DNA of 64,000 nt. Source: Bacteroidetes bacterium 37-13 (GTDB taxonomy: Bacteria > Bacteroidota > Bacteroidia > Chitinophagales > LD1). Location of the stretch: contig MKTC01000040.1 in the NCBI GenBank assembly GCA_001897535.1, positions 186,001-250,000 of the forward strand, given 5' to 3'. The notes below the pieces were generated by a model. It was not told the DNA's origin and made no database searches. It worked only from the letters and a program-made list of their open reading frames with translations. Positions within the stretch are counted from its first letter, which is position 1, and every line of letters starts with the position of its first letter. A program made the translations under genes and the position numbers. Below, piece by piece: positions 1 through 11,562 of the stretch.

Positions 1-1660
1 CAGGAATTTTATCTCCGTATTCTTTTAATTGTTTTTCTGTTTGGAAAGCTAAGCTATCGGCAGCATTTTTCTTCTCTGCTTTTTCACGTGCTTCTTTATC
101 GGCAGATTCATTGGCTTTTGCTTCGTTGCGCATTTTTTCAATTTCCTCTTTGCTCAATCCTGTTGAAGCTTCAATACGAATGCTTTGTTCTTTTCCAGTG
201 CCTTTATCTTTTGCACTTACGTGAATAATACCGTTGCTATCAATATCGAAAGTAACTTCAATTTGAGGAACACCACGCGGAGCCACAGGAATATCGCCTA
301 AGTGAAAACGACCAATGCTGCGGTTGTCTTTCGCCATAGAACGCTCACCTTGCAATACGTGAATTTCTACCGATGGTTGATTATCGGCAGCAGTAGTAAA
401 CACTTGCGATTTTTTAGTTGGAATGGTTGCGTTAGATTCAATTAGTTTAGTGAATACGCCTCCGTAAGTTTCTAAGCCTAAAGAAAGTGGTGTTACATCA
501 ACCAACACAATATCGTCTTTCACATCTCCGCTTAAAATACCACCTTGAATAGCAGCTCCAATAGCTACAACCTCATCTGGGTTCACACCTTTTGAAGGTT
601 TTTTTCCGAAGAATTTTTCTACAACTTCCTGTATTTTTGGAATACGAGTTGAACCTCCAACCAAAATTACATCATCAATATCATTTGCAGTAAATCCGGC
701 ATCTTTTAATGCTTGGCGGCAAGGCTCTAAAGTTCTTTGCACCAAATCATCGGTAAGTTGCTCAAACTTAGCACGAGAAAGTTTGCGCACTAAGTGCTTC
801 GGCACACCATCAACAGCAGTAATATATGGCAAGTTTATTTCTGTTTCTTGCGAAGAACTTAATTCAATTTTAGCTTTCTCAGCAGCTTCTTTCAAACGTT
901 GGTAAGCCATTGGATCTTTGCGTAAATCTACATTTTCTTCACGCTTAAATTCATCAGCAAGCCATTCGATAACTGCGTGGTCAAAATCATCACCACCCAA
1001 GTGTGTATCACCGTTGGTAGATTTTACTTCAAACACACCACCGCCTAATTCAAGAATAGAAACATCAAATGTTCCGCCACCTAAGTCGTAAACTGCAATC
1101 TTAATATCTTGACCTTTTTTTTCAAGACCGTAAGCTAAAGCTGCTGCGGTAGGTTCGTTTATTATTCTGCGAACTTTTAAACCAGCAATTTCTCCAGCTT
1201 CTTTGGTAGCTTGGCGTTGGCTGTCGTTAAAGTAAGCGGGAACAGTAATTACCGCTTCCGTAACGGGTTGCCCAAGATAATCTTCAGCAGTTTTTTTCAT
1301 TTTCTGCAATATCATTGCCGAAATTTCTTGCGGTGTGTACAAACGTCCGTCAATATCTACACGCACAGTATCGTTATCGCCTTTTACTAATTTGTAAGTA
1401 AAGCGGTGCGATTCTTTTTCAATTTCGCTAAATCTATGCCCCATAAAACGTTTAATTGATTGTACCGTTTTAGTTGGGTTGGTAATTGCCTGGCGCTTAG
1501 CCGGATCGCCAACTTTGCGCTCGCCATTAGCCAAAAATCCAATTATGGAAGGTGTTGTTCTGCGACCTTCATCGTTTGCGATTACAATTGGATCTGCGCC
1601 TTCCATCACGCTCACACAACTGTTGGTTGTACCCAGGTCAATTCCTATTATTTTTCCCAT
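1..1660 (-). CDS. dnaK: Chaperone DnaK (Hsp70), C-terminus cut by window edge
   Basis: Cytosolic ATP-dependent Hsp70 chaperone working with DnaJ and GrpE. The reverse strand starts at the ATG at 1658-1660 and reads [16 protein letters not shown], the Hsp70 phosphate-1 motif. About 553 residues are present of the usual ~635, so the ATPase domain (about 1-380), linker and substrate-binding beta domain are here and the end of the helical lid is missing to the left. The last readable residues ([20 protein letters not shown]) match the lid helix of DnaK. It is divergent from the sensor kinase gene at 1854, with a 193-bp shared upstream region. Identification is certain; regulation is not visible, as no exact TAnnTTTG box precedes it. 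Confidence 0.97.
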
Positions 1661-1801
1661 GTTGATTAAATTTAAAAATTAAAGTTGCTATAGCTTTATC
1701 AACTGCTGTGCCAAGTACTTATTTTGCTAAGTGTGGCATACTTTTTAATTTCTGCAAGCCATAGTTTCTATTTTTATATGACAGAAAGGCAGTTTTAGGA
1801 G

Positions 1802-1834
1802 TTTGTGCATTAGCAATTTTACTTTCTAAATTTG
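1802..1834 (+). promoter_or_regulatory. Bacteroidota-type promoter for the sensor kinase gene
   Basis: TTTG at 1802-1805, a 21-bp spacer and TAAATTTG at 1827-1834 match the Bacteroidota -33 TTTG / -7 TAnnTTTG consensus exactly. The predicted transcription start would leave a leader of only about 13 nt before the ATG at 1854. Both hexamer-like elements and the spacing are seen; promoter activity is inferred. Confidence 0.55.
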
Positions 1835-1853
1835 CCCCAAACTTTTGTATTGA

Positions 1854-2900
1854 ATGAAGAACGCTACTCAAAAAAGTGTATCATTACTAGTATCTGTTCT
1901 TATCGCAATTTTTTTGCTGGTAGGCTTAGTTATTATTAAATTTTCGGTAGATGAAAATATGCCATTTTACATTATTGCCGCCCTTCCGCTATTGGTTTTT
2001 ATCATCTCTTTTCTTTTGGTTTATTTTACGGTTGAAGAATTTATATATCGAAGAGTAAAGTTGATATACAAAATTATTACCGACTTGAAAACAGGGAAAA
2101 ATGTGCTGCGCGAACAAAAAGATTCTCCCAATATTTTAGACGATGTGAAAGCACAAGTGATTGAGTTTAGCTTAAAGAAAAGTGCTGAAATTGACGAGCT
2201 AAAAAAATTAGAAAAATATCGCAAGGAATTTCTCGGCAATGTTTCGCACGAACTAAAAACTCCCATATTTAATATTCAAGGATATTTGGAAACCTTGTTA
2301 GACGGTGGTTTAGAAGATAGCAAAATTACGCGCGACTACATTGAGCGCGCAGCAAAAAATGCTGAACGATTAGAAAATATTGTTGCTGACCTTTTATTGA
2401 TTTCGCAATACGAAGCAGGAGAATTACAACTCCATATCGAAACTTTTGACATTCGCCAACTCGCTCAAGATATTTTTGAGAGCCTGAAAATGCAAGCAGA
2501 ACAGCGCAATATTCATTTGCAATTTAAGGAAGAAAGCAATAAGCTTTTTAAAGTTGAAGCCGATAAAAATAGCATATCGCAAGTGCTATATAATCTAATA
2601 ACCAATGCTATAAAATACGGACACGAAAGCGGCTTTGTGTTTGTTGGCTTTTATGAAAGAGATGAAAAACTTTTAGTAGAAATAAGCGATAATGGAATTG
2701 GAATTGAGCAGCGATACTTAGATAGATTGTTTGAGCGCTTTTACAGGGTGGACAAAGCTCGTTCGCGCGATGGAGGCGGTACAGGGCTTGGGCTCTCTAT
2801 TGTAAAACATATTATTGAAGCACATGGTGAAACTGTAAATGTTCGCAGTACCGTTGGTATTGGAACCACATTTGGTTTCACGCTAAGAAGAAGTGTTTAA
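1854..2900 (+). CDS. Membrane sensor histidine kinase, PhoR/WalK-like
   Basis: Inner-membrane two-component sensor kinase of 348 residues. Two hydrophobic segments at about 8-29 and 38-58 enclose a very short extracytoplasmic loop, so there is no room for a periplasmic sensor domain. A HisKA dimerisation domain follows with the H-box VSHELKTP (phospho-acceptor His132). The HATPase_c domain has the N-box NLITNAIKYG (about 247-256), the G1 box DNGIGI (279-284), an F-box FERFYRVD and the G2 box GGTGLGLSIV (about 308-317). All catalytic motifs are intact. No response regulator gene is next to it, so it is an orphan in this window; a PhoB/OmpR-type partner elsewhere is likely. Convergent with the ABC ATPase gene 22 bp downstream. 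Confidence 0.92.
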   Translation: MKNATQKSVSLLVSVLIAIFLLVGLVIIKFSVDENMPFYIIAALPLLVFIISFLLVYFTVEEFIYRRVKLIYKIITDLKTGKNVLREQKDSPNILDDVKAQVIEFSLKKSAEIDELKKLEKYRKEFLGNVSHELKTPIFNIQGYLETLLDGGLEDSKITRDYIERAAKNAERLENIVADLLLISQYEAGELQLHIETFDIRQLAQDIFESLKMQAEQRNIHLQFKEESNKLFKVEADKNSISQVLYNLITNAIKYGHESGFVFVGFYERDEKLLVEISDNGIGIEQRYLDRLFERFYRVDKARSRDGGGTGLGLSIVKHIIEAHGETVNVRSTVGIGTTFGFTLRRSV

Positions 2901-9436: not shown

Positions 9437-9816
9437 TGATTTCTGCTTTTTAATAAGTCCTCCTATTTCGCTGCCACTTTTTGACCCAGGAACCGAGTTT
9501 TTCTCATAATTTTCTAAATAACTACTTAAAATGGCTTTAAGATTTGCACTTTGTTAGAAAGTACAATGTTCTTTTATCGTTAATAGTGGTTTAAAAAGTA
9601 TTGTTTTCTGTTGAAAACATGTTTATTGAGCTGTTAGCTCTTCTATTTAAAGGTTTTCCACAGGTAGGTTTTATAGTGCAAATTTTCATTGAAACATATA
9701 CTGCATAATGATTTTGCCCCATTTGCTAAAATTGTTGAAAACTTTTTTGTCTATTTTTATGGCAATAAGTGGCATTAAGTGGACTAATTTCATAATTTCG
9801 TTTTGAATTTAAAGAA
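9437..9816. other. Intergenic region between ftsK and the division cluster
   Basis: About 380 bp between two divergent transcription units. Seen: a perfect inverted repeat GTTTTC-TGTT-GAAAAC at 9603-9618; two direct copies of TGTTGAAAAC (9609-9618 and 9733-9742); a DnaA-box-like TTTTCCACA at 9654-9662 with one mismatch to TTATCCACA; and the three-copy repeat before mraZ described separately. No convincing gene or RNA was found. Confidence 0.6.
9757..9800 (+). promoter_or_regulatory. Candidate MraZ operator and overlapping promoter
   Basis: Three TGG triplets at exactly 10-bp spacing (9760, 9770, 9780), the last two in the longer form AAGTGG (9767-9772 and 9777-9782), end 34 bp before the mraZ ATG. 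Known MraZ operators upstream of mraZ in other bacteria are short direct repeats with ~10-bp periodicity (TGGG-like in E. coli, AAAGTG-like in mycoplasma). A near-consensus -7 element TAATTTCG (9793-9800) follows, so bound MraZ would cover the -33 region. The repeats are seen; autoregulation is inferred from the family. Confidence 0.6.
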
Positions 9817-10287
9817 ATGGGCAAATTCAGAGGTCAGTTTAATTGTTCGGTGGACGACAAAGGGCGTATTAAAATGCCTGTGTCGTTTAAGCAGCAATTT
9901 GACCCGGCTGATAAAGGTTCATTCATGATAAAAAAAGGGTTAGACGATTGTCTTGAAATATACCCTTTGGCAATTTGGACAAAAGAAGAGGAGCGCTTAG
10001 ACCGATTAGATGATTACAATCCTATTCATCGCGCATTTCGTGGCACATTTATTTTAGGAATTACGGAGCTTACATTAGATGGTTCTGACAGATTTTTAAT
10101 TCCCAAAAGTTTAATGGGGTACTTAAACAACACCCGCGAAGTAATTATGGTTGGCGACCTTAATTTAATAAAGATATGGGAGCCAAGCAAGCTCCACGAT
10201 TTCACTTCGGTAACGTTGCCAAACATGCACCAATACAGTATTGAAGTTTCTAACTATTTAAACGAGTTAGAACGAAACAAAAAATAA
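9817..10287 (+). CDS. mraZ: Transcriptional regulator MraZ
   Basis: DNA-binding protein at the head of the division and wall cluster; in other bacteria it represses its own operon. The 156-residue sequence has two SpoVT/AbrB-like swapped-hairpin domains: the first around CSVDDKGRIKMP (about 10-21), the second around LTLDGSDRFLIPKSL (about 86-100). Length and start fit the family. It is preceded by a three-copy 10-bp direct repeat and separated from rsmH by only a few bases. Confidence 0.96.
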   Translation: MGKFRGQFNCSVDDKGRIKMPVSFKQQFDPADKGSFMIKKGLDDCLEIYPLAIWTKEEERLDRLDDYNPIHRAFRGTFILGITELTLDGSDRFLIPKSLMGYLNNTREVIMVGDLNLIKIWEPSKLHDFTSVTLPNMHQYSIEVSNYLNELERNKK

Positions 10288-10295
10288 CCGTGAAA

Positions 10296-11207
10296 ATGAG
10301 TTCAGAGCAGAACAATTATCACGTACCCGTTCTTTTACATGAATGTGTGGAGGCGCTGAATATTTTGCCCGATGGCGTGTATGTGGATACAACTTTTGGC
10401 GGTGGCGGTCATTCGCGCGAAATTTTGAAACACCTTTCAGCAAAAGGCAAACTCATTGCTTTCGACCAAGATGCCGATGCGAAACAGAATTTGCCAAGCG
10501 ATGAAAGGCTTGTTTTTATTCCGCAAAACTTTAGGCACTTGCAGCGCTTTCTTAGAGCAGAAGGCTTTGCAAAAGTAGATGGGATTTTAGCTGATTTAGG
10601 CGTTAGTTCATTTCAATTCGATACAGCTGAAAGAGGCTTTAGCTATCGCTTTGATGGTGCTTTGGATATGCGAATGAATGTGAACTCAGGCAGAACCGCA
10701 GCAGACATTTTAAACCAAGAAAGCGCAGCAACACTTCAGCAAATTTTTGGCGAATATGGTGAAGTGCGCAATGCAAAAACATTGGCAGAAAAAATTGCAG
10801 AAGTGCGCTTCCAAAAGCCATTCAAAACCATTAGCGATTTGCTCAACGTGTGCGAAGTAGTAATGAAAGGCGACAAACATCGCTACTGGGCACAAGTTTT
10901 TCAAGCGCTGCGAATTGAGGTAAACGATGAGTTGAGTGCGCTAAAAGATTTGCTGGAGCAAAGTGCGAAAGTGCTGAATCCAAATGGAATTTTGGCAGTA
11001 ATCACCTTCCATTCGCTCGAAGATAGATTGGTGAAAAACTTTATGAAAACCGGAAATTTTGAAGGTGAACATATTAAAGATGACTTTGGAAATATTGAGC
11101 GATTATTTAATGTAAAAACTAAAAAACCAATTGAAGCAAACGCACAAGAACTAAAACAAAACTCAAGAGCGCGAAGTGCCAAACTTCGTGTGGCGATAAA
11201 AAGATAA
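10296..11207 (+). CDS. rsmH: 16S rRNA (cytosine(1402)-N(4))-methyltransferase RsmH
   Basis: SAM-dependent methylation of C1402 in the ribosomal decoding centre. About 303 residues, with HVPVLLHECVEAL at the N-terminus, the SAM-binding motif TFGGGGHS, LADLGVSSFQFD, RGFSYRFDGALDMRM and FHSLEDRLVK, all diagnostic of the MraW/RsmH family. An ATG at 10296 is preferred; a GTG two codons earlier is also possible. Conserved second gene of the cluster, directly downstream of mraZ and upstream of the FtsL-like gene. Confidence 0.96.
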   Translation: MSSEQNNYHVPVLLHECVEALNILPDGVYVDTTFGGGGHSREILKHLSAKGKLIAFDQDADAKQNLPSDERLVFIPQNFRHLQRFLRAEGFAKVDGILADLGVSSFQFDTAERGFSYRFDGALDMRMNVNSGRTAADILNQESAATLQQIFGEYGEVRNAKTLAEKIAEVRFQKPFKTISDLLNVCEVVMKGDKHRYWAQVFQALRIEVNDELSALKDLLEQSAKVLNPNGILAVITFHSLEDRLVKNFMKTGNFEGEHIKDDFGNIERLFNVKTKKPIEANAQELKQNSRARSAKLRVAIKR

Positions 11208-11223
11208 TTTGAAAATAGAGGCT

Positions 11224-11562
11224 ATGGAAGAAACGGAAAAACAAACGGAAAAAAGTAAGGGTAATTTTTGGAGTAAAGCAAACGAAGCCAGTGAAATAGG
11301 TTTTATGAGCTTGTTTACAAACTTGCCTTTTATTCTGTTTTTAATTGGCTTGGGTGTGATACACATTGCCAATGCACATTTAGCTGAAAACTATGTGCGC
11401 GACATAGCTAAAAAAGAAAAACAAGTACAGCAACTGCGTTGGGATTACCTCTTTACTTCTTCAGAAATGATGAAGCAAAGCAAGCAGAGTTCAGTTGCCG
11501 GTTTAGTTGAAGAATATGGAATAAAGCCTTTACGTATTCCACCAAATATTGTTGAAGAATAA
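11224..11562 (+). CDS. FtsL-like division protein
   Basis: A 112-residue bitopic membrane protein in the position where ftsL is found in all division clusters, between rsmH and the division PBP. A polar cytoplasmic N-terminus of about 35 residues, one membrane segment (LPFILFLIGLGVIHIANAHL) and a C-terminal periplasmic heptad-like stretch (VRDIAKKEKQVQQLRWDYLF) match the Bacteroidota FtsL-like family. ATG at 11224 chosen; an in-frame TTG at 11209 directly after the rsmH stop is an alternative. It is expected to bridge the FtsQB complex and FtsW-FtsI. Primary sequence similarity to E. coli FtsL is minimal, so the call rests on position and topology. Confidence 0.85.
   Translation: MEETEKQTEKSKGNFWSKANEASEIGFMSLFTNLPFILFLIGLGVIHIANAHLAENYVRDIAKKEKQVQQLRWDYLFTSSEMMKQSKQSSVAGLVEEYGIKPLRIPPNIVEE

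Follow-up and report, generated by a model that had tools for sequence, protein, structure and literature searches.

A 10-bp array of TGG repeats upstream of mraZ as a probable, conserved MraZ operator in Bacteroidota

MraZ is a ring-shaped protein whose DxKGR loop forms its DNA-binding part, and MraZ boxes at the E. coli dcw promoter were reportedly described by Eraso in 2014. The array of E. coli K-12 is GTGGGAAATTGTGGGGCAAAGTGGGA, i.e., three boxes (GTGGGAA-GTGGGGC-AAAGTGGGAA) at a 10-bp period, and with hexamers picked by eye the order in K-12 is TTGACA, TAAACT, CAGTGGGAAATTGTGGGGCAAAGTGGGAAT and then mraZ. According to the accessible part of one published account, MraZ acts as a repressor in E. 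coli by binding MraZ boxes that precede the cluster, it represses in M. genitalium too, and the mollicute site is made of AAAGTG[T/G] repeats (PMC8475190). The mollicute site, reportedly described by Fisunov in 2016, is written as (AAAGTGKN3)3 in the accessible part of a second account (PMC5282649), and within these portions of both sources the site at the mraZ promoter is the sole occurrence on the M. genitalium chromosome (PMC5282649, PMC8475190). MraZ is widely conserved, and the accessible operator literature concerns E. coli and mollicutes; among the titles and abstract beginnings of the matches listed in our search, which left closed-access papers and regulon databases outside its scope, none described a MraZ operator in Bacteroidota.

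The window, i.e., the whole 64-kb stretch of DNA that we analyzed, is part of contig C40 of a 3.12-Mb genome in 43 contigs. It carries mraZ (9817..10287, + strand; PF02381, E-value 2.8e-20), whose 156-residue product is the presumed binding protein, as the first gene of a dcw cluster that continues with rsmH/mraW (10290..11207, +; PF01795), an FtsL-like gene (11209..11562, +; PF19579) and frames that by appearance resemble more division and wall genes, while ftsK (Pfam) lies in the opposite orientation (9419 to 6762, - strand). A sequence-only reading had pointed to three TGG repeats just upstream of mraZ, and we found these at 9760-9762, 9770-9772 and 9780-9782 (window sequence tatttttaTGGcaataagTGGcattaagTGGactaattt), within the mraZ/dcw promoter region, with the last TGG ending 34 bp before mraZ. 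Two of the copies extend to AAGTGG (9767-9772 and 9777-9782), also as that reading had it, and these belong to putative MraZ boxes 2 (AAGTGGCA, 9767..9774, +) and 3 (AAGTGGAC, 9777..9784, +), both assigned from sequence and alignment with relatives. Putative box 1 (TTATGGCA, 9757..9764, +) begins TTATGG and is degenerate at the A/G positions, its core being ATGG rather than GTGG; it nevertheless repeats directly at the 10-bp period and keeps the register of the arrays that relatives conserve. The E. coli dcw promoter resembles this locus in having three boxes at a 10-bp period just before mraZ and in its mraZ-rsmH order, and the mollicute site resembles it in its GTGK core preceded by A, its 10-bp period, its three copies and its place in the mraZ promoter region, although it belongs to a different phylum and the Bacteroidota box is extended to GTGGKA. 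The window boxes differ from those of E. coli in the base that follows GTGG or ATGG, which is C, C and A and never G or T; the fourth G of TGGG, which the sequence-only reading named as the E. coli feature, is absent from all three (TGGC, TGGC, TGGA). The suggestion that the core combines E. coli and mycoplasma features is a misreading of consensus words, as the two describe one and the same AAGTGGKA box, and because E. coli K-12 carries the same array we regard this as one shared operator and not a hybrid.

Within the window the pattern TGGN7TGGN7TGG occurred once against 0.15 matches expected from dinucleotide shuffles, and 14 of 100 shuffled windows held it at least once. AAGTGGN4AAGTGG occurred without mismatch at the array site only, and with up to two mismatches at eight window sites (4.2 expected). 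Since a single array match in 64 kb is weak evidence taken alone, we treated conservation as the decisive test. Relatives were sampled by graded distance (same genus and family, same order, phylum, and named contigs) and mraZ starts were fixed with a MraZ HMM, giving 170 upstream regions, mostly from Bacteroidota; 130 non-redundant regions were left once those shorter than 120 bp, or having more than 30% of their 8-mers in common with a kept region, had been dropped. The comparison of mraZ upstream regions that the sequence-only reading had proposed bore it out: two TGG exactly 10 bp apart were present in 121 of the 130 regions (shuffles 7.0 in the array test and 7.6 in the count by spacing), a triple in 83 (0.10 in shuffles) and a quadruple in 10 (none in shuffles). 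Its statement that the spacing equals the periodicity of MraZ boxes also stood, in that the 10-bp period dominates these regions and is the same in the E. coli and mollicute sites. Spacings of 10 (121 regions) and 20 (91) were the most prominent, there were lesser excesses at 30 (28 regions), 3 (21), 31 (20) and 40 (16), and spacings of 9 and 11 showed no excess over background in the 130 regions. The strict array was absent from six regions (L029, L077, L078, L147, L154 and L159). The box consensus was AAGTGGKA, and 455 boxes gave (A/T)(A/T)GTGG(T/G)A with core T and G each at 0.94, frequencies that lean to the consensus because the box finder rewarded it, whereas the TGG-only counts are free of this bias. 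Both the fixed period and the place of the array were kept in relatives down to 23–40% MraZ identity.

The protein of the window is consistent with this picture. It has two PF02381 stretches (72.5 bits) and keeps the DxKGR loop, with D13, K15, G16 and R17 invariant; its identity to the E. coli protein is 28%, and its R17 aligns with E. coli R15, a residue important for DNA binding. Four distinct MraZ sequences are found in the PDB. Across the phylum, mraZ was detected in 225 of 238 sampled genomes that were at least 90% complete. We combined the 13 genomes without it with an order member that likewise gave no match (G033) into a set of 14, and a second profile also found no mraZ in 14 of 14, a search that had no positive control of its own though the Pfam model had detected the 225 others. 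rsmH could be located in 11 of the 14, the remaining three being dropped as rsmH was undetected there as well. In the 500 bp before rsmH of these 11 genomes there was no triple array, and a pair in one; nine of the 11 come from a single family (f44), so the comparison represents few independent losses of mraZ. All nine sampled genomes of f44 (G085, G116, G142, G157, G161, G169, G192, G200 and G288) keep rsmH and had no detectable mraZ, and this family appears to be a natural case of MraZ loss in the phylum.

The conserved array and its non-detection before rsmH in mraZ-less genomes support the earlier interpretation as an operator, and with a probability of about 0.9 we propose that 9757-9784 is a MraZ operator serving negative autoregulation of the dcw operon. 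The three direct AAGTGGKA repeats, one DNA turn (10 bp) apart, would lie on one face of the helix, where neighbouring subunits of the MraZ ring would read successive turns; MraZ, as the product of the first dcw gene, would in this way bind the array and lower transcription of its own operon. Here we infer the binding by MraZ, the sign of the regulation, the stoichiometry and the choice of promoter. From comparison of the sequences, the array appears to be a real and conserved MraZ operator of known type, to which these data would add a class-linked arrangement of the promoter and an unexplained distal element in the window's family. The consensus AAGTGGKA at 10 bp, valid through the sampled phylum, would permit direct annotation of the operator.

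In the whole genome we saw 22 sites for TGGN7TGGN7TGG (five for the pattern read backwards) and six for AGTGGN5AGTGG (control three). A second MraZ target in the window's own genome was considered and rejected for the AGTGGN5AGTGG sites, which were the ones taken into this check (the other 21 TGGN7TGGN7TGG sites are not AGTGGN5AGTGG sites), as all five besides that at mraZ fell within open frames, counted from stop to stop, of 100 codons or more. These contexts agree with a single main MraZ target, as the accessible part of one account describes for M. genitalium (PMC8475190).

How the array is placed relative to the promoter bears on the sign of regulation. The -7 element of the Bacteroidota primary sigma factor is given as TAnnTTTG in the accessible part of one source (PMC7366714) and as spanning -12 to -5 in that of another (PMC9723704). 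Taking the final G of the array as the reference position, and with the six regions lacking a strict array excluded, we compared 30 regions of other classes with 94 from Bacteroidia or named contigs, a group that holds named contigs of unassigned class or order, some of them bearing labels of other phyla (e.g., L109 and L112, Zixibacteriota, and L111, Eubacteriales). When +9 to +14 was tested, TAnnTTTR was found in 53 of the 94, starting at +11 to +14, and in none of the 30; among the 94 there was none at +3 to +8 or at +15 to +20, and minor positions were +1 (seven regions), +21/+22 (five) and -30 (four). Conversely, TTGAC at -58 to -40 was present in 24 of the 30 other-class regions vs. eight of the 94. 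From these position counts we draw a contrast between classes: outside Bacteroidia, as in E. coli, where the array sits after TTGACA/TAAACT, it would mostly follow a sigma70-type promoter, whereas within Bacteroidia, where many regions instead have the TAnnTTTR element after the array, it would often precede and overlap the promoter. The data thus suggest an array that stays fixed while the promoter switches sides between classes. The window's family shows both kinds, with a TTGTTGAAAA...TAnTTTAG-like stretch directly against box 1 and, past box 3, elements resembling TAnnTTTG. In the window itself, an upstream promoter candidate supported by sequence and family conservation (9732..9759, +) consists of TTG at 9732-9734, a 17-bp spacer and TATTTTTA at 9752-9759 abutting box 1, and a candidate, imperfect -7 element (TAATTTCG, 9793..9800, +), with one mismatch to TAnnTTTG, begins 11 positions past the last G of box 3.

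In Bacteroidia the array would by this geometry mostly begin upstream of the core promoter and extend into it (for the window, roughly -48 to -21 relative to the start that TAATTTCG predicts), and bound MraZ would therefore exclude sigma. With the upstream candidate, whose end lies at box 1 in the window, bound MraZ would sit over the start site, which is the E. coli arrangement. A position upstream of the -7 element could, however, also suit an activator, and the alternative that survives best keeps the site and reverses the sign: MraZ of Bacteroidia would activate the dcw operon from an array beside the -33 region and off the start site. The 53 regions in which the array shortly precedes the -7 element fit such an arrangement, as does the lack of any TTTG at the -33 distance among these 53 when aligned. 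We nonetheless consider activation unlikely, since MraZ represses in both organisms in which its action is described above, the array covers the entire -33 region, which is a usual place for a repressor, and the window has its upstream promoter candidate in an E. coli-like arrangement.

Far less probable is that the array is the site of another regulator, such as DnaA, with mraZ merely adjacent. This alternative has in its favor that DnaA boxes (TGTGGATAA) have a TGTGG core in common with the array and, within the order, occur upstream of mraZ more often than expected. In a search zone of 300 bp ending 100 bp before mraZ, all 22 non-redundant regions of the family and 12 of the 26 from the order had a DnaA box with at most one mismatch to TTATCCACA (7% in shuffles), and exact TTATCCACA occurred in 22 of the 48 regions of family and order together, each at most 400 bp long, compared with a mean of 0.18 and a maximum of 8 for 200 permuted 9-mers, and once per 125–300 kb in five whole genomes of the family. 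Inverted MraZ boxes may be the source of part of the one-mismatch signal. Against DnaA as the reader of the array, the boxes in the family lie 161–256 bp upstream, apart from it, and elsewhere in the sample they are far less common (nine of 46 named regions, whose orders are unassigned, and four of 31 from other classes; shuffles 7–8%), while the 10-bp array is phylum-wide, is found with the same consensus in E. coli and was not found in the mraZ-less genomes examined. As for a chance repeat in AT-rich intergenic DNA, the patterns that arise in shuffled windows speak for it, yet the conservation of period and place in such distant relatives leaves it a negligible probability.

The window has one DnaA-box-like sequence (TTTTCCACA, 9654..9662, +), which differs from TTATCCACA at one position and sits where relatives have their DnaA-box region. 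Across the order, TTATCCACA boxes were seen 80–226 bp before mraZ (L006, L011, L018, L136, L152 and others), and in many members of the family they form a convergent pair 17–18 bp apart. Given the DnaA boxes and a change in skew inside the window, we considered an origin of replication at mraZ. In G002 the skew was positive in 16 of 16 samples over the 660 kb around mraZ, and in G091, where skew is weak, eight of nine samples at 1.0–2.8 Mb were negative and the sign changed 0.6–0.8 Mb away from mraZ (2.21 Mb), so we rejected oriC at mraZ in both; G010 had weak GC skew with no clear change at mraZ. MraZ and DnaA sites have met before, in that a MraZ site overlaps a DnaA box at the E. coli mioC promoter according to the accessible part of one report (PMC4446571). 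The mraZ upstream regions studied here resemble mioC in having MraZ-type and DnaA-type sites close together and differ from it in location, as mioC adjoins the E. coli origin, whereas here the sites are upstream of mraZ and, in the two genomes whose skew could be used, not at the origin.

The family has a second element. An inverted pair, TACCACTTTTTACCAC or a close variant, was present 143–156 bp before mraZ in 28 of 30 family genomes (L005-L030, L291 and L292; by the loose pattern, 26 of 28 plus both of two further genomes), which are not independent because they represent one family and four genera. Read on the other strand, TACCACTTTTTACCAC gives two MraZ boxes spaced 10 bp apart, and it is missing from the window and from L004 of the same genus (two of three genus members). 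The distance from the distal pair to the first forward box was 84–89 bp in 27 of 28 genomes and 97 bp in one (L025). With that outlier left out, the first 25 regions gave a mean of 86.0 bp and a standard deviation of 1.3, compared with a standard deviation of 3.2 for the distance from array to start codon, and the first 40 nt between pair and array had a median identity of 0.57 vs. 0.53 when shuffled. The 86 bp correspond to about 8.2 turns, but the 5-bp spread amounts to half a turn, which is too wide to establish strict helical phasing. An operator for a divergent gene is an unlikely reason for the pair, which was kept with either a divergent or a tandem upstream open frame (frames called mechanically), and a mirrored -7 element beside it was rejected, with TAnnTTTR at +9 to +14 in 0 of 26. 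The strict pattern matched 13 of 22 non-redundant family regions (0.15 in shuffles); inverted pairs are not confined to the family, as it also matched eight of 46 named and seven of 31 other-class regions at other distances.

The MraZ ring could bridge the distal pair and the forward array. Extending this, we tentatively suggest, as a reading that is possible though more probably wrong than right, that the dcw promoter of the family is composite, with a proximal MraZ array, the inverted pair about 86 bp upstream and DnaA boxes beyond it: a small repression loop would form as MraZ joins the two arrays, and DnaA would couple the transcription of dcw to the initiation of replication, while the window's genus would be losing the distal pair and the window would keep one degenerate DnaA box. 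Both the two-array loop and the link to DnaA are open to testing in this family.

Inverted CCAC pairs at 10 bp were also seen outside the class, 241–294 bp before mraZ (L139, L140, L144, L146, L149, L156, L160 and L164). At L076 an inverted MraZ box pair occupies the gap separating mraZ from a divergent alpha/beta hydrolase gene, which is followed by one for a ribosome-binding-type GTPase (Pfam; frames 1947-2744 and 1333-1947, minus strand), and it is possible that these divergent genes are a second MraZ target; divergent frames of similar length were noted at L070, L086 and L104. Finally, the mraZ upstream regions of L064 (labelled Verrucomicrobia) and L084 (labelled Alphaproteobacteria) resemble those of the Bacteroidota loci L032 and L085, so their labels or bins are probably wrong.
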